A stretch of 64,000 nucleotides of DNA from contig MWYZ01000054.1 of the NCBI GenBank assembly GCA_002050365.1, positions 62,001 to 126,000 on the forward strand, in the 5' to 3' direction. Under the pieces are notes generated by a model that did no database searches, had not been told where the DNA came from, and was given only the letters and a program-made list of their open reading frames with translations. Shown one piece after another: positions 6,037 through 28,611 of the stretch (position 1 is its first letter; each line of letters starts with the position of its first letter). This stretch comes from Acidobacteria bacterium 28-1. Its GTDB lineage: Bacteria; Acidobacteriota; Blastocatellia; Pyrinomonadales; Pyrinomonadaceae. The translations under genes and the position numbers were made by a program.

Positions 6037-7617
6037 TTATTTGACCGGCACGAAAATCACTTTCGAGTTTTGAAAGTCAAACGTCAAGCGATAATTTTTG
6101 AGAAAATTTCCGCCTAAAATTCCTGCTTGCTGAAAACCCGACGTTTCGTTTATTAACTCCAAATCGAGCGCAATTGCGGTGATGCTTTGACGGCTGTGAC
6201 TGCCGAAAGTTACGCGCGGAAGCAGCAGCGAAGGCACATTTTCAGTAACGCCCGCCGCGCCGACGACACGCATTTTTTCACCTTTAACAAATCTGCTGAA
6301 TTCCTTTGAATTAGCTAATTCGTTGGAGATAACCGACACGCTCGCGCCTGTGTCAACAATAAAATTCAGCGGAACTTCAATGCCTTCGAGATTGACTTCG
6401 CCGCTCAAAAATCCGCTTGAAGTAAGGCGCAGCGGCAAAGAGAGCGCAGTTGTTTGAATTTTTTGTTTGTCGAATACTTTTTTACTTACCAACGTGAACG
6501 TCTGATTGCCGTAATCAATGGTCGTCAAAAATTTCGAGATGAGCGACAAACCAATATAACCGTCAACTCGTTCGTTGGTCGTGTGAAATTTGCGGATGTA
6601 AATCGGCACGTTTTTGATTTTCGCATCGCCGATATAAACTGATGGCAAAAAACCATAGACGATTTCAAATTTACCTTCACCGCCGATGCCGCGCGCCAAA
6701 CCGCCGCGCGTTATTGGTTTGATTTTTAATCTTTCGGCGGTTTCTTCGGAGATAACGGAAATTCCCGAACCCGTATCTAAAATAAAATTAAGCGGCTCGC
6801 TTGATTTGTCGAGTTTAATTTGGACAATCGGACGGTCGTTTTTTAACTTAAACGAAACAATTGTCTGTTCCGCGCCGTCCACATCATAGAGCGATTGCCG
6901 ATTGCCTAGAAAACGCAAAAAATTGATAAGTCCTTTAATGCGGTCGCGTCTTTCAACTTCGGTTTGCGGCGAAATTTGCAGGTATCTTTTGTAAGCCTCA
7001 GAAGCCTCTTTATATTGCTCGGCTCGCGCCGCAACCTGCGCTAAAGCATACACAAAATCAGGTTCTCGCGGATCTAAATAAACGGCTTCGCGCAAACTTT
7101 CGAGACCCTGCGTAATCCGATTTTCATAAAAGTCAAGCATTCCATAACCCGACCACGCTAACGCTTCCTGATTGTTTAGTTTTACAGCGTTGATAAAAGA
7201 GATTTTTGCATCGCGGAAATTGCCCGCGCTAAGCAGAGCCGTGCCTAAAACGGCAAATGCGCGAGAATTTTTCGACTCGGCTCGCGCGACTTCAATCGAA
7301 AGGTCATACGCTTCGACAAGGCGCCTCTGTTTGAGCAAATTATAACTTAACGCGAGTTTGGCGGCTGAATTTTTCGGACTGCTTTCGACAACACCGCGCA
7401 AAAGGTTTTCGGCTTTGATGAATTCGCCGCGGCGCGTAAGTTTTTCCGCTTGTTTGATTAATTGTTTTGCTTCGGCGACTTCGGTCTGCTGGATATTGCC
7501 GTCTGCTGCGGGCGCTGTAAAACCAGCCGTCAGCAAACAAGCCGAGATTAAGAAAACAAACTTTTTTTTGTGGAAAGGAAATCGAAAAACATCTGTCAAA
7601 AAATCTTTATACTTCAT
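6037..7617 (-). CDS. TPR protein with two retropepsin-like aspartic protease domains
   Basis: 526-residue exported protein. I start it at the ATG at 7617 because AAAGGAGG lies 5 bases upstream; an in-frame ATG at 7650 lacks this. A signal peptide or anchor is followed by TPR-type helical repeats (about residues 40-215: two-helix units with Ala/Leu/Tyr spacing). Then come two clan-AA aspartic protease domains, each with the DTG motif: FILDTGSGISVIS (near residue 280) and FIVDTGASVSVIS (near 425). Retropepsins normally dimerise with one DTG each; here both halves sit in one chain, so it may form an internal pseudodimer. Substrate unknown. Confidence 0.85.
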   Translation of the reverse strand: MKYKDFLTDVFRFPFHKKKFVFLISACLLTAGFTAPAADGNIQQTEVAEAKQLIKQAEKLTRRGEFIKAENLLRGVVESSPKNSAAKLALSYNLLKQRRLVEAYDLSIEVARAESKNSRAFAVLGTALLSAGNFRDAKISFINAVKLNNQEALAWSGYGMLDFYENRITQGLESLREAVYLDPREPDFVYALAQVAARAEQYKEASEAYKRYLQISPQTEVERRDRIKGLINFLRFLGNRQSLYDVDGAEQTIVSFKLKNDRPIVQIKLDKSSEPLNFILDTGSGISVISEETAERLKIKPITRGGLARGIGGEGKFEIVYGFLPSVYIGDAKIKNVPIYIRKFHTTNERVDGYIGLSLISKFLTTIDYGNQTFTLVSKKVFDKQKIQTTALSLPLRLTSSGFLSGEVNLEGIEVPLNFIVDTGASVSVISNELANSKEFSRFVKGEKMRVVGAAGVTENVPSLLLPRVTFGSHSRQSITAIALDLELINETSGFQQAGILGGNFLKNYRLTFDFQNSKVIFVPVK

Positions 7618-7646
7618 AAAATCCTCCTTTCCATTGTCAGGCGAAT

Positions 7647-8309
7647 TCATTTAAGAATCTCGCCGGTTTTCATTGACCACAAAACTAAATCCAGTTCATC
7701 AAAATCAATCTTGGTCAGCGTGGCTAAATTTTTTAATTTTTCTTCAATCGTTAGATACTTCGACCGCGTATTCGGTGGCTTCGGGTCATCAATAATTCCG
7801 AGTTCAGCCAGACTTCGCAAAATATGTTTGTCGAGAATCGCGTAACCTTTTAAACCGATGTTTCTCAAATAATGGCTCGCTTCCTTATAGCCCAAACCTT
7901 TAATGCGTTTTTCTTTGACCAGCCAATCGCGCCGCTCCAAATCATCGTCGAAACCGCTCAGTTTTTCCCGCAGACGCAAACCGCAATGCTCTTGCAAAAA
8001 TTCGCGTGAAGCGACGATGTAACCTGCCCGCGCATTCGGATAGCGATGTCGTCCGCGCAGAGCGTCGGCGAGTTCGTGGTGATTTCCTGTTTGCAAAATT
8101 GGTCTGACGGCTTCGACCGAACGAAGTCCCATGCGCGCCGAGCAACCGCCTGTAAAGAAACAAAAAACCATCTCTTCCCAAAGGCGTTCGTCGGTTTCAT
8201 TTTCCCAAACGGATTCAAACTCCCTAAGTCTGGCACGAATTTCCGCGCGTCTTTCCGCGTGTGCCGCTTTTATTTTTTCAATCGTTAGAGGCTTTTGTTC
8301 TTTTTTCAC
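7647..8309 (-). CDS. ogg: 8-oxoguanine DNA glycosylase/AP lyase, Ogg2-type
   Basis: Base-excision repair enzyme of 220 residues. The helix-hairpin-helix signature KGLGYKEASHYLRNIG (about residues 135-150) contains the catalytic Lys, and LDKHILRSL follows with the catalytic Asp/His region of the Ogg2 family. The length is right for Ogg2, which excises 8-oxo-7,8-dihydroguanine and nicks the strand by beta-elimination. It ends just 29 bp upstream of the protease gene start, so the two may be co-transcribed. Confidence 0.85.
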   Translation of the reverse strand: MKKEQKPLTIEKIKAAHAERRAEIRARLREFESVWENETDERLWEEMVFCFFTGGCSARMGLRSVEAVRPILQTGNHHELADALRGRHRYPNARAGYIVASREFLQEHCGLRLREKLSGFDDDLERRDWLVKEKRIKGLGYKEASHYLRNIGLKGYAILDKHILRSLAELGIIDDPKPPNTRSKYLTIEEKLKNLATLTKIDFDELDLVLWSMKTGEILK

Positions 8310-16368: not shown

Positions 16369-16466
16369 TAGGCAGTCAGCAGTAGCAGTTGGCAGGAAGT
16401 TCGCTTTGATATTTTAGATTTTCAATTAAAAAACAAACCTGCCAACTGCTACTGCCGACTGCCTAC
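16369..16466. repeat. Heptameric repeat forming a long inverted repeat (AGTAGGC/AGTTGGC words)
   Basis: Left arm about 16369-16398 and right arm about 16438-16466 are near-perfect reverse complements of one another built from 7-bp units (agcagta, gcagttg on one side; aactgct, actgccg, actgcct on the other), with an A/T-rich 40-bp centre. The TAG stop of the M48 peptidase gene (16463-16465) lies inside the right arm. Confidence 0.88.
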
Positions 16467-17434
16467 TTTTTCAATAATTCCGCATACTGCCCGTCGTCAA
16501 CCCATTTCAAAATCTCCGACACGCGCCAAATGGGGAACGGATGCGAAAGTCCGGCGTTGAGTATGTCCGCCCAGAATTTATCCAACTTTTTCTCGTCGTA
16601 ATTTTTCTGAAACTCGCGGGCTTGTTCAAGAAATAAATCGTAATCAATTTTCGACGCTAATGTTCCACCGCACAATTTCATCATCGTTCGCCCGATGACG
16701 TGCGGGTCTTGCGTAACCAGAAGTGCGGCTCTATCGCACGACAATTCCGCCCGGCGCGCCCAAGCAAGCAACGCACCGCTAATTCCGGCAGAAATTAAAA
16801 ACTTGATAATCTCCGCGCCCGGAATTATTCGAGCTATCGAAGCGTTCGCTAGTGCTTCAATTAATCTCGCGGCGGTCAAATATAAAACGTGTTCGGCGTG
16901 AATGTGTCCGACTTCGTGCGCGATAACGGCGAGCGTTTCTTCATCGCTCAGACGTTCGATTAAAGACGTATGAAGCACGATAATCGGTTTTTCGACTCCG
17001 CCCGTAAATGCGTTGACAGTTGGATTTTGCTGAATATAAAGTTCCGGCATATCAACGCCCAATGTCGTGCAAGCGATTTGCAATTTAGCGTGAAGGTCGG
17101 GACATTGCTTCGGCGTAACCTTGACCGCGCTCGCCATAAACATTACGCGAATGGCTGATTCGCCCGTTACGGCGAGCAGTTTTTTAAGTGCCGTATCAAT
17201 TCCGGGAATTGCCCGCAAAGCCGCTAACGCTTTGCTGTCCGCCGGATGAACGTATTCGTGTTTGCTCAAATCGGCAAACTTTTTGTGCGGCTCATTCGAC
17301 AAAGGCAGTCGGCAGCGTCCGCAGACGGCTTCATTGTTTTTATAATCTTCTTTGACGGAATTTTTCTGTCCGCAGTAGCGACAACGCACCGAATATCTTT
17401 CGGCGATGGCGGCTGATGAATCTTTTTTTGACAT
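16463..17434 (-). CDS. M48-family zinc metallopeptidase with zinc ribbon
   Basis: 323-residue peptidase. An N-terminal zinc ribbon has Cys pairs C18-x2-C21 and C38-x2-C41. The metallopeptidase motif HEVGH is at residues 173-177, followed by a hydrophobic stretch (about 185-220) and the downstream Glu region SCDRAALL. This is the Ste24/HtpX-type M48 architecture, although the long helices are reduced, so the protein may be cytosolic or only peripherally membrane-bound. Its C-terminus (LLKK) and stop are formed by the repeat at 16438-16466. Confidence 0.88.
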   Translation of the reverse strand: MSKKDSSAAIAERYSVRCRYCGQKNSVKEDYKNNEAVCGRCRLPLSNEPHKKFADLSKHEYVHPADSKALAALRAIPGIDTALKKLLAVTGESAIRVMFMASAVKVTPKQCPDLHAKLQIACTTLGVDMPELYIQQNPTVNAFTGGVEKPIIVLHTSLIERLSDEETLAVIAHEVGHIHAEHVLYLTAARLIEALANASIARIIPGAEIIKFLISAGISGALLAWARRAELSCDRAALLVTQDPHVIGRTMMKLCGGTLASKIDYDLFLEQAREFQKNYDEKKLDKFWADILNAGLSHPFPIWRVSEILKWVDDGQYAELLKK

Positions 17435-20263: not shown

Positions 20264-20381
20264 AGGCAAAAGTAAAAAAGTAAAAAGCAAAAGTGAAGAA
20301 AGAATCATTGCCTATCTTTTCTCTCAATTATTTTTCTGCCGCGCTCTTCACTTTTACCTTTTGCCTTTTTACTTTTTACTT
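20262..20381. repeat. Heptameric inverted repeat (AGTAAAA/AGGCAAA words)
   Basis: Left arm 20262-20300 with units aggcaaa, agtaaaa, aagtaaa, aagcaaa, agtgaag; right arm about 20347-20381 with the complements ttcactt, ttacctt, ttgcctt, tttactt, tttactt. It lies between the convergent malQ and ABC permease genes and touches the stop codon of the permease (20380). Confidence 0.82.
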
Positions 20382-21528
20382 AGCTTTGCTTTTTGCCGAG
20401 CATATCAAGCCCGACCGCTGCGACGAGAATTGAGCCTTTGATAATATCCTGCATAAAATCCTTGACATTTAAAAGCGACATTCCGTTATCGAGGCTTGCC
20501 ATAATCAACGCGCCCAAACACGCGCCGAAAATTGTGCCGCGTCCGCCCATCAAACTTGCACCGCCGATAACGCACGCCGCAATCGCGTCAAGTTCTTTGA
20601 GAGTTCCTGCATCCGGCGAAGCGCTTCCGACACGCGCCGTAAAAATCAATGACGCGATGCCGGTTAATGCTCCTAAAAGCGCGAAGACTTTTAAGATATT
20701 GAGTTTGTTGTTGATGCCAGAAAGTCGCGCCGCGTCAGGGTTGCCACCGATGGCGTAAAGATAACGTCCGAAGGTTGTAAAATTTGTTATAAAAACGCCC
20801 AGCAGAGCGACGGCGAGCAGAATCAAAACCGGAATCGGAATACCCGCGTAGGAATTCATCAAATAAATAAAAACGATTATCGCGACGATTGACGGAATTG
20901 ATTTGAGAATTTCTCCCATGTAATTCGCTTCGCCGAGTCCGTAAGTTTTCTGTGTTTGAGCGCGGCGGAGAGCAACTGCCAAAACAAAGAGAATCGCCGC
21001 GCCCGCCAGAATCCAACCGATATCTGGGTCAACGTATTGCTGCCCGATTGTTTTGAAAATCGGGTCGGCAACCGGAATCGTTTCCGACTGCGTAATGGCT
21101 TTGACCGCGCCGCGCCATGCGAGCAAGCCGCCCAAAGTTACGATGAACGCCGGAATGTTGAAATAAGCGGTGAGCGTTCCGTGAACGAATCCGATTAACA
21201 CGCCGACCACTACCGCCGACAAAAGCGCAATCGGCAATCCAAAATTCCATTCAGTCAACGCAAGCGCGGCGACCGCGCCGGCGAATCCTAAAACCGAACC
21301 GACCGACAAATCAATTTGTCCGGCGACAATCACCATTAACATTCCGACTGCAAGAATGCCGGTCACGGAAGTTTGCAGCATCAAATTTGACAAGTTGCGC
21401 GGAGTAAAAAAGATGCCGCTCGTCGCCCAATGAAAGTAAATCCAAACCACCGCGAGCGCAGCAATCATCGAGTATGCCCGCAAAGCCGATGCTTGTATTT
21501 TGAAAATGTTTTCTTTCGTTTCACTCAT
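20380..21528 (-). CDS. xylH: Sugar ABC transporter permease, XylH-like
   Basis: Inner-membrane permease of the CUT2/ribose-xylose family, 382 residues with about 10 hydrophobic helices. Signature segments are VGMLMVIVAGQIDLSVGSV, HGTLTAYFNIPAFIVTLGG, GRYLYAIGGNPDAARLSGI and GGASLMGGRGTIFGACLGAL, the EAA-like loops contacting the ATPase. Last gene of the order substrate-binding protein, ATPase, permease on the minus strand, 65 bp after the ATPase gene. Confidence 0.92.
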   Translation of the reverse strand: MSETKENIFKIQASALRAYSMIAALAVVWIYFHWATSGIFFTPRNLSNLMLQTSVTGILAVGMLMVIVAGQIDLSVGSVLGFAGAVAALALTEWNFGLPIALLSAVVVGVLIGFVHGTLTAYFNIPAFIVTLGGLLAWRGAVKAITQSETIPVADPIFKTIGQQYVDPDIGWILAGAAILFVLAVALRRAQTQKTYGLGEANYMGEILKSIPSIVAIIVFIYLMNSYAGIPIPVLILLAVALLGVFITNFTTFGRYLYAIGGNPDAARLSGINNKLNILKVFALLGALTGIASLIFTARVGSASPDAGTLKELDAIAACVIGGASLMGGRGTIFGACLGALIMASLDNGMSLLNVKDFMQDIIKGSILVAAVGLDMLGKKQS

Positions 21529-21564: not shown

Positions 21565-21596
21565 TTTTTACCTTTTGCCTTTTTACTTTTGCCTTA
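21565..21596. repeat. Heptameric repeat at the 3' end of the sugar ATPase gene
   Basis: Units ccttttg, ccttttt, acttttg between the ATPase and permease genes, using the same word as 12354-12402 and 20347-20381. The ATPase stop codon (21594-21596) is its last element. Confidence 0.65.
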
Positions 21597-23120
21597 AACA
21601 TTTCCCGTTGCCGCCGCCATTACTTTTTCCGGCGTAACTTCCTGTTTGGAAAATTCGCCCGTCAATTTCCCTTCGTGCAGAACTAAAACGCGGTCGGAAA
21701 GCCCGATTATTTCCGGCAATTCGCTTGACACCATCACGATTGCTAAACCTTGTTTTGCCAGCGCATTGATGTTCGCGTAAATTTCCTGCTTTGCGCCGAC
21801 ATCAATGCCGCGCGTCGGTTCGTCGAGAAATAACACTTTCGGCTTTGTCAAAAGCCATTTTCCAAGCACGACCTTTTGCTGATTGCCGCCCGAAAGTGTT
21901 CCCGCCACGGTCAGAGGCGAGTTGGCTTTAACGCGTAAATCAGCCATTGATTGTTTAGCCGCCACGCTTTCGCGGGTGCGATGAATCAGAAACGCGCCGC
22001 TGATTTGTTTCAAGCCGGCGAGCGTCATATTGTCCAAAATCGTCTGCTCTAAAATTAACCCAAAACGCTTGCGGTCTTCGGTCACGAAACCGATGCCGTT
22101 TTCAATTGCCTCCGACGGCGAATTTATCGAAACTCGCTTGCCTTCAACAAAAATTTCGCCCGATGATTTGCCAAGATGCGCTCCGAAAATTGACATCAAA
22201 AGTTCGCTGCGTCCTGCGCCCATCAAACCCGCTATCCCTAGGACTTCGCCGCGTCGGACGGCAAACGAAATGTTGTCAACCAATTTTTTATCGGTTTCCG
22301 CTTCAAACGCCGTCAGGTTTTTGATTTCCAAAGCCGCTTCGCCAAATTCGTGCGCGGATTTCGGAAAAATATCGCCGACTTCCCGCCCGACCATCTGTGC
22401 GATGACTTGTCCGATTGTCAAGTTTTTAGCGTCGTTCGTGCCGACAGTTTTTCCGTCACGCAAAACGGTAATTCGGTCGGACATCGTAAAAACTTCGCCG
22501 AGTTTGTGCGAGATGTAAATCATTCCCACGCCGCGCGATTTCAAACGTCGCAAAATATCGAACAGCGTTTCGACTTCCGATTCGGTCAGCGCGGCGGTCG
22601 GCTCATCGAGAACCAAAATTTTTGCGTTTTGCGACAATGCCTTGGCGATTTCGACAAGTTGTTGTGAACCGATGCCGAGATTTCCGACCGGCGTTTTCGG
22701 GTTTATCGGCAGATTCAAATCTTGAAGAAGTTTACCGGCGCGTTGGTAAAGCTCCGTCCAATTTATCACTCCGAAACGTGAAGGCTCGCGCCCCAAAAAA
22801 ATATTTTCGCCGACGGTCAATTCTTTAACCAAGGAGAGTTCCTGAAAGATGATGGCGATTCCTGCATCTTCGGCATCGCGGATATTTTTAAATTTTCGCG
22901 GTGTGCCCTCGACTACAATTTCGCCGCCGTAAGTTCCCGCCGGATAGACACCCGACAAAACTTTCATCAAAGTTGATTTTCCCGCGCCGTTTTCGCCGAC
23001 GAGCGCGTGAAATTCGCCGGCGAAAAGGTCAAGCGTTACGCCGTCGAGAGCCTTCACGCCGGGAAATTCTTTGGTGATGTTTTTCATCTCCAAAAGCGGA
23101 GATTTTGTTTGCATCGTCAT
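21594..23120 (-). CDS. xylG: Sugar ABC transporter ATP-binding protein, XylG-like
   Basis: Two tandem ABC domains, 508 residues. First domain: Walker A GENGAGKSTLMKVLSG (about 40-55), signature GIGSQQLVEIAKAL, Walker B ILVLDEPTAAL. Second domain: degenerate Walker A GLMGAGRSELLM, signature LSGGNQQKVVLGKWL, Walker B VLFLDEPTRGID. This is the double ATPase of CUT2 importers. The start is ATG 23120 or 23114; no ribosome site is visible because a REP hairpin (23135-23159) sits right upstream, probably replacing the original leader. Confidence 0.93.
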   Translation of the reverse strand: MTMQTKSPLLEMKNITKEFPGVKALDGVTLDLFAGEFHALVGENGAGKSTLMKVLSGVYPAGTYGGEIVVEGTPRKFKNIRDAEDAGIAIIFQELSLVKELTVGENIFLGREPSRFGVINWTELYQRAGKLLQDLNLPINPKTPVGNLGIGSQQLVEIAKALSQNAKILVLDEPTAALTESEVETLFDILRRLKSRGVGMIYISHKLGEVFTMSDRITVLRDGKTVGTNDAKNLTIGQVIAQMVGREVGDIFPKSAHEFGEAALEIKNLTAFEAETDKKLVDNISFAVRRGEVLGIAGLMGAGRSELLMSIFGAHLGKSSGEIFVEGKRVSINSPSEAIENGIGFVTEDRKRFGLILEQTILDNMTLAGLKQISGAFLIHRTRESVAAKQSMADLRVKANSPLTVAGTLSGGNQQKVVLGKWLLTKPKVLFLDEPTRGIDVGAKQEIYANINALAKQGLAIVMVSSELPEIIGLSDRVLVLHEGKLTGEFSKQEVTPEKVMAAATGNV

Positions 23121-23134
23121 TACAAAAAACGATT

Positions 23135-23662
23135 GTAGGGGCGAGGCTCGTCCTCGCCCGCTCCTTTATTTTAAATAATCAACTCGTCCGACAAATTCTC
23201 AATCGTCCAAATTTTTCTTCAACGGATTTTCTTTGATGTATTTCAAACACTCGAAAAAATCCGTTTCATTACGAATAATATGGTCGTGATAACCGCGTTG
23301 CCAAAGTTGCCCTTTTCCTATTTTCCAATAAACGCGAGTCGAAATACTTTTGAATGCTCCACAAATTTGTCCGAGCGTTTTGTTTGATTCGCCTGCTCCG
23401 ATTAGCGCGTGAAAATGGTCGGGCATTAAACAATATCCATAAAGATTGAATTTCACTTTTTCACGCAAATTCAGTAAACATTCGACAATGGCTTTAGCAA
23501 ATTCTTGGTTGTAAAAAGCGTTCTTTTATTTGAAACAACGATTGTTACGAAATAGACGCGACACGAAGCATAATCAAAATGTTCTAATCGTTATGAATTC
23601 TTCCGTGTGTATAATTTCTCACTCATTTCGTTTAAGCGGGCGAGGACAAGCCTCGCCCCTAC
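23135..23662. mobile_element. REP-flanked RAYT element interrupting the sugar ABC operon
   Basis: Two REP hairpins in opposite orientation bracket a decayed transposase gene. Left REP: GTAG at 23135-23138 followed by stem GGGCGAGG (23139-23146), loop ctcgt, CCTCGCCC (23152-23159). Right REP is the mirror image: stem 23638-23645 and 23651-23658, loop acaag, then CTAC (GTAG on the minus strand) at 23659-23662. The GTAG foot plus palindrome is the classic REP form. The element fills the gap between the xylF-like stop (23681) and the xylG-like start (23120) almost exactly. Confidence 0.8.
23199..23626 (-). pseudogene. REP-associated tyrosine transposase (RAYT), broken
   Basis: IS200-like Y1 transposase remnant. 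Reading from ATG 23626: MSEKLYTRKNS, then an in-frame TAA at 23591-23593, then RLEHFDYASCRVYFVTIVVSNKR in the same frame, then a one-base loss in the T run near 23517-23521 shifts to the frame YNQEFAKAIVECLLNLREKVKF, followed by YGYCLMPDHFHALIG with the HUH metal motif HFH. The C-terminal part (WQRGYHDHIIRNETDFFECL, with the region of the catalytic Tyr) is intact. Start, HUH and C-terminal motifs together match full-length RAYT, so at least two lesions inactivate it. Confidence 0.82.
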
Positions 23663-23680
23663 AAAATTCGCTACATTTCA

Positions 23681-24772
23681 TTATTGCTTCGGTCGCTGGT
23701 CAGCAGGAACATTTTTATAAACTTCGTCGAATCTCGCGTAGCCGTCCTTGATGACCGTCGTCATCAGATTGTCTTTATCAACCGTCGTAACTTCCAGCAA
23801 AATTGCGGGAACGTCCTTGCCGAGATTGTCGTTTCTAAAAGGCTTTGCGTCGGCTAAAGTTTCCTTTTTCGCCAACTTTATCGCAGCTTCGACGGCGGCG
23901 TTGGCAAGCGGGATAATCGGTTTGTAGACGGTCATTGATTGTTTGCCTTCGGCGATGCGTTGGAGCGCGTCAATTTGTGCGTCTTGTCCGGTAACAATCA
24001 CTTTGCCCGTCAAGCCGCGCTTATCAAGAGCCGAAACTACGCCGCCCGCCATTCCGTCGTTCGAGACGACAATCGCTTGAATGTCATCGCGATGTTGCGT
24101 CAGCGCATTTTCAACCATTTTCAATGCTTCCTCTGGTTTCCAATCGGTGATAAATTGGTCGGCTTTGATAACGACGGCTTTGCTGTCAATCGCGGGCTGC
24201 AGAACGGCGAGTTGTTCCTTTTTCATAATCACCGCATTATTGTCAGTTGACGCGCCGTAGACCATTATGTAGTTTCCCTTCGGAACTTTACCCAAAGCGT
24301 ATTCGGCGATTTTTCGCCCGATGACCGGAACTTGATGCGAAACATACAAATCAATTTTGTCTGAATTTATCAAGCGGTCATAGCTGATAACGGGAACGCC
24401 TTGTGCTTTCGCCTTTTCTACCATCGAAGCCGCCTGCGTCGCATCATGCGGCGCAATTACAACTACGTCAACGCCCTGTGTCAATAAATTATCCACGTCG
24501 TTTGCCTGCTTGTCGGATTTGTTATCGGCGACCGTAATGACGCAATCAACATTCAACTGCTTGCAATGTGCTTCAAACGCTTCGCGGTCGCGCACCCAAC
24601 GCTCTTCCTTTTGCGTGTCCATCGCAAAACCGATCTTGATTCGGCGATTCGGGTCTTTGTTCGTTTGGTTCGACGAACCCGTCGCCACACTGTTTCCGTT
24701 TTGCGGAGCGTTCACGCAAGCCGCCAGAAAAAAAGCTAAAATCAAAAATATTGGAATGATAAATCTCTGCAT
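23681..24772 (-). CDS. xylF: Sugar-binding lipoprotein of ABC transporter, XylF-like
   Basis: Periplasmic sugar-binding protein, 363 residues, lipoprotein signal ending FFLAAC (Cys19). The mature part begins with RIKIGFAMDTQKEERWVRD and carries GVDVVVIAPHDA, VPVISYDRLI, VYGASTDNNA and IVVSNDGMAGG, the pattern of the D-xylose/glucose-binding XylF branch of type-1 periplasmic proteins. It is first in the order xylF-xylG-xylH, but a RAYT element now separates it from xylG. Since neighbours are glucan hydrolases and no xylose catabolism gene is present here, glucose is as likely a ligand as xylose. Confidence 0.9.
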   Translation of the reverse strand: MQRFIIPIFLILAFFLAACVNAPQNGNSVATGSSNQTNKDPNRRIKIGFAMDTQKEERWVRDREAFEAHCKQLNVDCVITVADNKSDKQANDVDNLLTQGVDVVVIAPHDATQAASMVEKAKAQGVPVISYDRLINSDKIDLYVSHQVPVIGRKIAEYALGKVPKGNYIMVYGASTDNNAVIMKKEQLAVLQPAIDSKAVVIKADQFITDWKPEEALKMVENALTQHRDDIQAIVVSNDGMAGGVVSALDKRGLTGKVIVTGQDAQIDALQRIAEGKQSMTVYKPIIPLANAAVEAAIKLAKKETLADAKPFRNDNLGKDVPAILLEVTTVDKDNLMTTVIKDGYARFDEVYKNVPADQRPKQ

Positions 24773-24863: not shown

Positions 24864-26222
24864 TCAACGAATCTTAACACGCGTTAAAGCATTTTTTATC
24901 TCCGCATTTCGCATAAACCATCGCCAGACGTCTCCGCTGCGCAGGTTTTCCGCGCTAAGGAGCGTGATGCCGACATCAATTCCGATGACATCTTGATTAA
25001 CCCAACCCGTATGCGGATTAAAGGCATCGGCGAAACCGTAGCGTCCATAAATTTTATCACCATATTTCGTTTTCATTTCCACAAGCGCGGGTAGTGCGAT
25101 TTCCGGCGCAAACATCAAAGAACCTGCCGGCGCACACGGCACGACGCTTCCGTCGGTCGCTTCGTGGCGCGGAGGTGCGCCCCAGGCGACGTAACCTTTC
25201 GCGCTATCTGAAGCGGTCAAGCCCCAAATATTTGCCGTATAAAGCGGAAATTCCTTGCTCAAAACATCTATAAAAAATTGCCTCTGCGCATAAGTCGCCG
25301 CAACAGAATTCTCAAAATAATCAACCGCAAAATTTGCATAATGCTCGCGCTTACTGCGGAAATCAACCCAAGCGTGCGAAAACTGATGAATAAAAAGCGG
25401 CGACACGGCAGCGAGAAATTTGTAATTTTTGTAAGTTACCCAATCGCGCTTCCACGCATACCACGATTGCCAGCGAATCGGACGAGACGGCGAGCCGATG
25501 CCGAGCAAATATAACATCGTCTGTTCGCTGTAATCGTTCCAGCGATTGACAATAAAACCCGTTTCGGGTCGCCAGCCGTGCGAAAGTAAATCTTCATCGC
25601 TGTTGAGCATCCAGGGAAAATCAACCCGCTCGTAGATTTTCGATGCCAGCCGAACAATTTCCGCGTCGCCCGCAAAACATTGACGAACGCTCAAAACGCC
25701 GCCGAGCAGAAGTGCCGTGTCTATCGAAGAAACTTCGCTGCGCCAACGCCGCTCGCCCGTTTTTTGGTCGAGCCAATGGTAAAACCAACCGTTTTTGTGA
25801 AACGCGCGGTTGGCAAAAAAATCGAGCGTGCGGCGCGTTTTCTCTTTCGCTTCTTCCGAACTAATCCATTTTCTTTCAGCGGCGATGCAGTAAGAAGTTA
25901 AAGCAAAGCCAGTCGAAGCAATACTGGCAACCTGAAAATGGTCTTCGCCCCGTTTCGGCGCGTCGCCATTCGTCCGCGCTCGGTCAAGCGTCAAGCCCGT
26001 GTCTGGGTCCGAGTGTTCCCAGAAAAATTGAAAGGCGCGGCGTTCGAGGTCTTCAAGAAATGCCCTATCATCAGGTGTTAAAACATATTTTTGAGTCGGA
26101 ACTTTTTCTTTAGAGGCAACTGTCTGTCTGGAAGTTTCCTTAACTGGTTGCGCGAACGTACCAGTTTGCACCGGGAAAGCTAAAACCAAAAAGACAAACG
26201 TTACCCAAAATTTCTTTGACAT
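24864..26222 (-). CDS. Secreted glucoamylase-like glycosidase (GH144-type)
   Basis: Exported 452-residue protein with signal peptide (about 1-25). The (alpha/alpha)6 domain of the Glycoamylase/GH144 family starts at FLEDLERRAFQFFWEHSDP and TGLTLDRARTNG, with FQVASIASTGFALTSYCIAAERK, ERRWRSEVSSIDTALLLGGVL, WNDYSEQTMLYLLGIGSP, FSHAWVDFR and a C-terminal DVIGIDVGITLLSAENLRSG. Characterised GH144 members are endo-beta-1,2-glucanases. The gene follows the GH3 gene on the same strand, which fits stepwise degradation of a beta-glucan. Product specificity is inferred from family and context only. Confidence 0.85.
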   Translation of the reverse strand: MSKKFWVTFVFLVLAFPVQTGTFAQPVKETSRQTVASKEKVPTQKYVLTPDDRAFLEDLERRAFQFFWEHSDPDTGLTLDRARTNGDAPKRGEDHFQVASIASTGFALTSYCIAAERKWISSEEAKEKTRRTLDFFANRAFHKNGWFYHWLDQKTGERRWRSEVSSIDTALLLGGVLSVRQCFAGDAEIVRLASKIYERVDFPWMLNSDEDLLSHGWRPETGFIVNRWNDYSEQTMLYLLGIGSPSRPIRWQSWYAWKRDWVTYKNYKFLAAVSPLFIHQFSHAWVDFRSKREHYANFAVDYFENSVAATYAQRQFFIDVLSKEFPLYTANIWGLTASDSAKGYVAWGAPPRHEATDGSVVPCAPAGSLMFAPEIALPALVEMKTKYGDKIYGRYGFADAFNPHTGWVNQDVIGIDVGITLLSAENLRSGDVWRWFMRNAEIKNALTRVKIR

Positions 26223-26262
26223 TAATTGTTACAAATTATCTTAAGGTACCAGTTAGAATTTT

Positions 26263-26362
26263 TCACCGCCGAGACGTGGAGATTTCGCCGAGAAACGCGA
26301 GAGATTTAGATTGTCTCCTAGAGCGAAACTCTGCGTTTCCGCGGCGGCTCGGTGGCGAAAAA
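26263..26362. repeat. Inverted repeat of the CACCGC-GAGACG family
   Basis: Left part tttttcaccgccgagacgtg (from about 26263) and right part ctctgcgtttccgcgg...ggtggcgaaaa (to 26362) are imperfect reverse complements. The words match the terminal repeats of the GxxExxY cassette at 41151-41632, but no gene lies between them here. It fills the gap between the GH3 stop and the GH144 start. Confidence 0.6.
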
Positions 26363-26367
26363 TCATT

Positions 26368-28611
26368 TTATTTTACGATTGTAAAAGTATCTTTCAAACC
26401 ATCGTCGTTCGAACTTGTTCCGACAGTTAAACCGAACTCGCCTGCTTCTACAACGTATTGATTCGCCGTGTTGTAAAATCCCAAATCTTTTGCCTTCAGA
26501 ACTAATTCAATTTTTCTTTTTTCGCCCGCTTTTAGCGAGACTCTTTGAAATGCTTTTAATTCTTTGACGGGACGCGAAAGGCTGGCGACAAAATCGCGCA
26601 CATAAACTTGCACGACTTCCGCGCCGGCGCGCTTGCCCGTATTTTCCACGTCAACCGAAACTTTTAGCTCGCCGGTTTTTGATATTTTGCTCTGGCTCAA
26701 TTGCAGATTTGAAACTTTAAATGTCGTATAGCTCAAACCGTAACCGAATGGATAAAGCGGCGTGTTGGGCGAATCTAGATATTTGGAAGTGTATTTATTT
26801 TCGGCTTCAAACGGTCTGCCGGTCGGCAGAGCGTTATAGTAAATCGGAATTTGCCCGACCGAGCGGGGAAACGTAATCGGCAATTTGCCGCTCGGATTAG
26901 CGTCGCCGAACAAGGTATCTGCAATCGCGTTGCCGGCTTCGGTTCCGGCAAACCAAGTTTCAAGAATTGCGGGCGAATTTTCCGCCAGCCAGTTTATCGT
27001 CAGCGGTCTACCGTTCATCAAAACAACCGCGTAAGACTTGCCGGTTTGGTGAATTCTTTTGACTAATTCAAGCTGTTTGCCGGGCAACCCGATGTCGGTG
27101 CGCGAAGACGCTTCCGCGCTCATATCAATATCTTCGCCGACGGTTAAAATCGTAAAATCGCTGTTTTGGGCAAGTTTTACGGCTTCGTCAAAACCGCTTG
27201 CGTCCTCGCATTTCGCATCGCAGCCACTCGCGAATTTTACTTTTGCTGAATTTCCAAGTTTATTTTTCACGCCTTCAAATACGGTTACCGCGTCTTGCTC
27301 GCGTCCGTCGCCCGCCCAATTGCCGTTCATATTGCGCTGGTCGCCAGCGAGAAATCCGACGACGGCGATTTCTTTGATAGATTTTTTTATCGGCAGAGTT
27401 TCGCGCTCGTTCTTTAATAAGACAAAAGATTCGTTCGCCGATTGACGCGCGAATTTTCTGTGTTCGGCATTGAGAAGCATCGCTCTTTCACGGTTTGCAT
27501 CGGCATACGGTTTCTCAAAAAGTCCAAGTTTGAATTTCGTTCGCAAAACTTCGCGGACGGCGTTGTCAATTGTCGCCATCGAGAGCTTTTTATTTTGAAC
27601 GAGCTGTTCGCCGTGTTTGTTGACGAAACGTGAAACCATTTCAATGTCAATGCCGGCGTTTAAAGCAAGCCGCGCCGCGTCCGCTTCGTCGAGGGCAACG
27701 CCGTGTTTCATCAATTCCATCACGGCGGTGTAATCGGTAACGACCAGCGCGTCGGATTTCCATTCGTCGCGCAGGATTTGTTTCCAAAGAAACGGATTGG
27801 CGGTTGAAGGAACGCCGCTGATGCTGTTAAACGAAGTCATAAACGAACCGACTCCGGCATCAACCGCCGCTTTGAACGGCGGAAAATAAATTTCACGCAA
27901 AGTGCGCTCGCTCATATCGGTCGTGTTGTAATCGCGCCCCGCTTCCGCCGCTCCGTAAGCTGCGAAATGTTTGGCGCAAGCCATCACGCGGTCGCTTTGG
28001 CTGAAATCCGTTCCCTGAAAACCGCGCACGCGGGCGAAAGCAATCTGCGAACCCAAGAATGTGTCTTCGCCCGCGCCTTCGGCGATTCTGCCCCAACGCG
28101 GGTCGCGAGCAATGTCCACCATCGGCGCAAACGTCCAATGCACGCCGGCGCTTCTGGCTTCCGTCGCCGCGATGTGCGCTGATTTTTCAATCGAAGCCAA
28201 ATCCCAACTCGCCGATTCGCCCAGTGGAATCGGGAACATCGTTCGGTATCCGTGAATCACGTCAAAGGCAAACAACATCGGAATTTTCAGACGCGATTGC
28301 TCGACGGCAATTTTTTGCAATTCGTTCGATTGTTCCGCGCCGCGCACGTTTAGAGTTGAACCGAGAAGACCGTTTCGAGCGAGTTCGAGATGTTCGGGAC
28401 GATATTTGCCGCTCGCTTCACCGTCGAGTTGCTGCAGTTGACCGAGTTTTTCAGCGAGCGTCATTTTTGCCAGCAAACTGTCAATTTTTCTCTCGATGCT
28501 CGAAGTTTGCGCGGCGAAACGAACGTTGCGCTGAGCGAAAAGTAACGAAGTGTTGAAAAAAAACAGGCAGACTAAAATAAACGAGATATGGCGTTTGACA
28601 GCTAACCTCAT
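26368..28611 (-). CDS. bglX: Beta-glucosidase, GH3 (BglX-like)
   Basis: Periplasmic GH3 beta-glucosidase of 747 residues with a signal peptide (1-26). The (beta/alpha)8 domain contains PMLFAFDVIHGYRTMFPIPL, RDPRWGRIAEGAGED and the nucleophile Asp in SDALVVTDYTAVMEL. The alpha/beta sandwich has GRPLTINWLAENSPAILETWF and NPSGKLPITFPRSVGQIP. A fibronectin III-like domain (about 650-740) ends the protein, as in E. coli BglX. A GGAG ribosome site lies 8 bases before ATG 28611. It hydrolyses terminal beta-glucosyl residues; with the neighbouring GH144-like enzyme it would release glucose from beta-glucan. Confidence 0.93.
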   Translation of the reverse strand: MRLAVKRHISFILVCLFFFNTSLLFAQRNVRFAAQTSSIERKIDSLLAKMTLAEKLGQLQQLDGEASGKYRPEHLELARNGLLGSTLNVRGAEQSNELQKIAVEQSRLKIPMLFAFDVIHGYRTMFPIPLGESASWDLASIEKSAHIAATEARSAGVHWTFAPMVDIARDPRWGRIAEGAGEDTFLGSQIAFARVRGFQGTDFSQSDRVMACAKHFAAYGAAEAGRDYNTTDMSERTLREIYFPPFKAAVDAGVGSFMTSFNSISGVPSTANPFLWKQILRDEWKSDALVVTDYTAVMELMKHGVALDEADAARLALNAGIDIEMVSRFVNKHGEQLVQNKKLSMATIDNAVREVLRTKFKLGLFEKPYADANRERAMLLNAEHRKFARQSANESFVLLKNERETLPIKKSIKEIAVVGFLAGDQRNMNGNWAGDGREQDAVTVFEGVKNKLGNSAKVKFASGCDAKCEDASGFDEAVKLAQNSDFTILTVGEDIDMSAEASSRTDIGLPGKQLELVKRIHQTGKSYAVVLMNGRPLTINWLAENSPAILETWFAGTEAGNAIADTLFGDANPSGKLPITFPRSVGQIPIYYNALPTGRPFEAENKYTSKYLDSPNTPLYPFGYGLSYTTFKVSNLQLSQSKISKTGELKVSVDVENTGKRAGAEVVQVYVRDFVASLSRPVKELKAFQRVSLKAGEKRKIELVLKAKDLGFYNTANQYVVEAGEFGLTVGTSSNDDGLKDTFTIVK

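Follow-up and report, generated by a model that had tools for sequence, protein, structure and literature searches.

A decayed REPtron at the binding-protein/ATPase junction of a xylose-type ABC operon in an acidobacterium, with REPs that may stabilize upstream mRNA

In Escherichia coli, the stabilizing structure in the malE-malF intercistronic region is a REP. The malEFG operon and four other ABC operons of this species undergo differential decay, in which the stabilized gene is invariably that of the binding protein, and stable hairpins are located at the 3' ends of most stabilized upstream segments (PMC5927463). REPs are also constituents of REPtrons, in which the gene of a Y1 HUH transposase (RAYT) with the Y---NP motif is flanked by facing GTAG palindromes and related REPs are found genome-wide; two-ended REPtrons have been described in other phyla (PMC3733652, PMC6006769), and for Acidobacteriota TIR-flanked (TIRYT) genes have been described (PMC3733652). 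A pair of facing REPs able to pair with each other is known as a REPIN (PMC3116915), and E. coli genomes lacking a RAYT still carry REPINs, though fewer of them (PMC8049555).

The window analyzed here is a stretch of 64,000 nt, and the element under study spans positions 23133 to 23664 from REP to REP (Table 1). It is almost certainly a dead REPtron, consisting of a decayed RAYT (class-2 Y1 HUH) and the two GTAG REPs that face each other across it. It shares with the described REPtrons the Y---NP transposase, the facing flanking palindromes, and the related REPs elsewhere in the genome, but the RAYT is a pseudogene, and the acidobacterial host, a member of the Pyrinomonadaceae, carries a REP-flanked RAYT as opposed to the TIRYT genes described for this phylum. 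REPtrons are already known and the element itself is ordinary; it is the position that is informative: the element lies exactly between the binding-protein and ATPase genes, as the first-pass annotation had stated, about 17 nt past the stop codon of the former and 12 nt before the annotated start codon of the latter (23120). Overall, we assign a probability of roughly 0.7 to the reading that this is a dead REPtron in a xylose-type ABC operon whose REPs now probably stabilize the upstream mRNA.

Table 1. Coordinates of the element and of the neighboring genes in the window
Feature	Position	Strand	Remarks
Sugar ABC permease gene	20380..21528	-	same operon
Xylose-type (XylG-like) sugar ABC ATPase gene	21594..23120	-	the element's downstream neighbor; passes NCBIfam PRK13549
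REP 1 (type A), TTGTAGGGGCGAGGCTCGTCCTCGCCC	23133..23162	+	GTAG foot pointing outward; ATPase start codon 12 nt away
RAYT (TnpA-REP) pseudogene	23166..23626	-	Pfam match, NCBIfam score under the cutoff; alignment to intact homologues
REP 2 (type A), mirroring REP 1	23635..23664	-	GTAG foot pointing outward; about 17 nt past the binding-protein stop codon
Xylose-type (XylF-like) substrate-binding protein gene	23681..24772	-	upstream of the element
Glucoamylase-like (PF10091) and BglX-like GH3 genes	24864..28611	-	same cluster, upstream

The two REPs, which had been described as GTAG footed and facing each other, are 30-nt inverted repeats with 97% complementarity and a spacing of 472 nt. Each forms a hairpin with an 8-bp stem, a 5-nt loop, and an unpaired GTAG foot, and both hairpins are more stable than their own shuffled sequences (minimum free energies of -16.6 and -17.6 kcal/mol, z scores of -3.4 and -4.0). 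Like a REPIN, the element contains two facing REPs able to pair; however, its arms are 472 nt apart with the RAYT between them, whereas the REP pairs of the second type in this genome (type B) are spaced by about 100 nt. The REPs were also considered as intrinsic terminators, and this was rejected, as the junction sequence has no T-run 3' of either hairpin.

The open piece of the RAYT remnant (23199-23468) matches Pfam PF01797 (Y1_Tnp, E value of 8e-8) and reaches 75.2 bits with NCBIfam REP_Tyr_transpos, which is just under the 80-bit cutoff, probably owing to the fragmentation of the gene; the intact homologue from another genus (G020) scores 90.5 bits. In the alignment with nine intact homologues, the HUH (DHFH) and tyrosine (YIKENP, class 2 Y---NP) motifs of the remnant are preserved. 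An IS200/IS605 insertion sequence was rejected on account of Y---NP in place of Y---Q and of the 20.1 bits obtained by the intact homologue against an IS200 cutoff of 55. When the remnant is aligned to G020, a single frameshift is seen near 23514-23518, within an A5 run, along with two stops in the reading frame, a TAA (about 23591-23593) and a TGA (23199-23201); the frameshift noticed at first reading stands, and the single stop codon reported with it has to be replaced by two. It is very improbable that these lesions are assembly errors and that the organism has an unbroken RAYT: the genome is indeed a draft of 109 contigs and the frameshift sits in a homopolymer, but both stops are located away from the A5 run and the adjoining genes are unbroken for kilobases. 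For the longest piece in a single frame, dN/dS is about 0.1 versus both G020 and G042, with a high dS; together with the small number of lesions, this indicates that constraint acted on the RAYT over most of its history, and its decay looks recent.

With the G020 RAYT as a query against 119 Pyrinomonadaceae genomes, matches were obtained in 11 genomes including that of the window, which is the sole match in its genus (8 other members, several of them incomplete). The G020 REPtron (C1:374251-374946) has the same REP subfamily in mirror image at both ends and about 74% DNA identity over the RAYT, but its gene is intact, it possesses an extra internal REP 5' of the RAYT, and its genomic position is unrelated. 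Among the 10 RAYT loci of the lineage, facing GTAG REPs are present on both sides in the window, G020, G058, G044, G131, and G043; G042, G057, and G062 also have REPs at both ends, but these are degenerate, ORF overlapping, or multiple (flanks read by eye), and the G039 locus has one REP. Roughly 8 to 9 of the 10 homologous loci are thus two-ended, indicating that the two-ended REPtron is usual in this lineage, contrary to the earlier view that the retention of both end hairpins is rare.

A genomic family of these palindromes, which their first-pass assignment as REPs implied, was found by pattern searches of the window's own genome (G000). Four copies of the exact REP core are present, at three loci, and the looser GTAG-REP pattern GTAGGGGC-N(11-15)-GCCC gave 25 matches versus 0 for the reversed-pattern control, which rules out that the genome holds no other copies. 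Approximately 7 copies are of type A, as in the element, and approximately 18 are of type B (GTAGGGGCAGGTCTTGTGCCTGCCC), mostly arranged as REPIN-like facing pairs about 100 nt apart at gene junctions; such type B pairs are seen on contigs C29, C60, C61, C65, C68, C75, and C78 (L225-L242). The search of this assembly (91% complete) with the G020 RAYT returned the broken remnant only, no intact RAYT matching the type B REPs was found in it, and no GTAG REPs lie beside other Y1 genes at the best seven matches. Since the only RAYT of the lineage in a 91%-complete assembly is broken, the REP population appears to be orphaned. Other intact Y1 transposase genes of the genome (L009, L010, and L011, on C49, C9, and C57) lie between long inverted repeats of a different, in part palindromic sequence (e.g., GCCACTAGCTTTAGCTAGTGG), in a TIRtron-like arrangement. 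One facing type A pair (L001 1485-1586, G000:C23:5558-5659) is located in frame within an ORF that reads through it and that, from its sequence motifs, we take to be M1-aminopeptidase-like. REPs inside genes are already known (PMC3733652).

The operon order differs among relatives. A member of another genus (G055) has the order glucoamylase-like gene, binding protein, ATPase, permease with an 86-nt binding-protein/ATPase gap and no element, which agrees with the earlier statement that the element splits the operon, and G052, G053, and G054 likewise have the order binding protein, ATPase, permease. That statement is weakened by the sister genome G006 (100/98 support) and the genus mates G002, G003, and G004, where the order is ATPase, permease, binding protein; in G005 and G008, the binding-protein gene is on a different contig. 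Given these two orders, insertion into an existing junction is indistinguishable from rearrangement, and a parsimony analysis with the ATPase tree favors neither. The REPtron could mark, or have caused, a rearrangement that moved the binding-protein gene from behind the permease to a place before the ATPase, with the element at the new joint. The order of G006 and the three genus mates would fit such a move, as would the position of the glucoamylase-like gene directly before the ATPase in G001, G002, G004, and G005; we nevertheless regard it as less likely than not, for G055 has the order of the window without the element, and this order may be ancestral. An assignment of the window's order as clearly derived, made by comparison with the genus mates, was withdrawn for the same reason.

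As in the malE-malF region (PMC5927463), a palindromic hairpin lies here between the gene of a binding protein and the downstream membrane-transport genes; it is located just 3' of the former, before the other transporter genes, and is not followed by a terminator T-run. The differences are that a dead RAYT separates the two REPs and that the transporter is another one. It is plausible that the REPs affect expression of the operon, and the repeated occurrence of unrelated hairpins at this junction in relatives supports this indirectly. In the mechanism that we propose, the RAYT would once have handled the flanking REPs and, being broken, could no longer do so, and the REPs would persist as transcribed hairpins; the REP about 17 nt past the binding-protein stop codon would then shield the upstream mRNA from 3'-5' decay, as the malE-malF REP does, and the protected mRNA would favor the binding protein over the ATPase and permease. 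This role as a decay barrier for the binding-protein mRNA, to which we give nearly an even chance, is suggested by the differential decay in E. coli, where binding-protein genes are stabilized and hairpins are found at their 3' ends.

Strong hairpins whose sequences are unrelated between genera also occur in the binding-protein/ATPase junctions of relatives. They include tandem-repeat hairpins (G055, G052, G053, G017, and G035, among others) and, in G054 (RBC039), a type B REP pair with a minimum free energy of -79.9 kcal/mol (z score of -10.7). With each junction scored by the best stem no more than 170 nt away from the stop codon, and a score of at least 12 taken as strong, a strong hairpin is present in 10 of 19 binding-protein/ATPase junctions; the corresponding counts are 11 of 150 for other co-directional junctions (P = 4.5e-6, odds ratio of about 14) and 3 of 44 for ATPase/permease junctions (P = 1.2e-4). 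These P values are indicative because the cutoff was picked after the data had been seen and because the background consists of mechanical ORFs (minus 6 hairpins that were assigned to binding-protein genes by inspection). The genomes counted are related to one another, but their hairpin sequences are not, which points to separate origins. The junction in the window scores 8 by this metric, since its long arms are 472 nt apart and each REP is a modest 8-bp hairpin.

In a serious rival to the decay-barrier reading, the element would be neutral debris: intergenic gaps are where REPtrons and REPINs settle, and this junction would just be a permissive one, with no effect on expression. Many unrelated gaps of this genome contain REPs, often at 3 to 10 nt from gene ends, and 24 of 82 convergent junctions in the genomes surveyed also score at least 12, so that hairpin deposition could be partly neutral. 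However, the overrepresentation after the binding-protein gene and the lower frequency at the ATPase/permease junction are not what neutral settling would suggest, and the lack of relatedness among the hairpin sequences suggests that structure was selected, as opposed to a single insertion having been inherited; we consider neutral debris quite possible but short of an even chance.

Across this genome and its relatives, the hairpins at this one junction are of several kinds, namely the REPtron, a REPIN, hairpins of tandem repeats, and inverted arms around a 23S-IVP ORF. We tentatively propose that in Pyrinomonadaceae and their relatives the binding-protein/ATPase junction may repeatedly gain unrelated hairpins that are selected for transporter stoichiometry, and that mobile palindromes, even those with a gene in the loop, may be recruited as barriers to mRNA decay. 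The junction is a natural experiment, with apparently independent and unrelated hairpins, two REP families among them, in many related species, and it matches the place where E. coli sets an excess of binding protein by such a structure. This would make the idea that operon tuning explains the retention of selfish palindromes testable by comparison; the recurrence of hairpins at the junction is somewhat more interesting than the element itself.

The IVP arrangement occurs in G010 and G021 at the binding-protein/ATPase junction (L058 and L061), where long inverted arms of short tandem repeats enclose a 23S_rRNA_IVP (PF05635) ORF, which in G021 is apparently interrupted, in parallel to the RAYT between its REP arms; a literature search for hairpin-enclosed IVP ORFs yielded nothing relevant. 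Small ORFs are also present in the ATPase/permease junctions of relatives (L044 in G002, L204 in G084, L208 in G089, L045 in G005, and L047 in G008). That of G084 is of the PDDEXK_3 (GxxExxY) type, with similar ORFs in G089 and G002 (broken, between inverted repeats), whereas G008 has an antitoxin-like ORF upstream of a ParE-like toxin, and so, by similarity, does G005. In the window itself, long hairpins made of short repeats (GTTCAAAGTTCAAGG..., GCAGTCGGCAGTAGCAG...) are located just downstream of the minus-strand ORFs at 6037-7650 and 16463-17434, and these hairpins after co-directional ORFs are of the same style as those at the sugar-operon junctions of the relatives.
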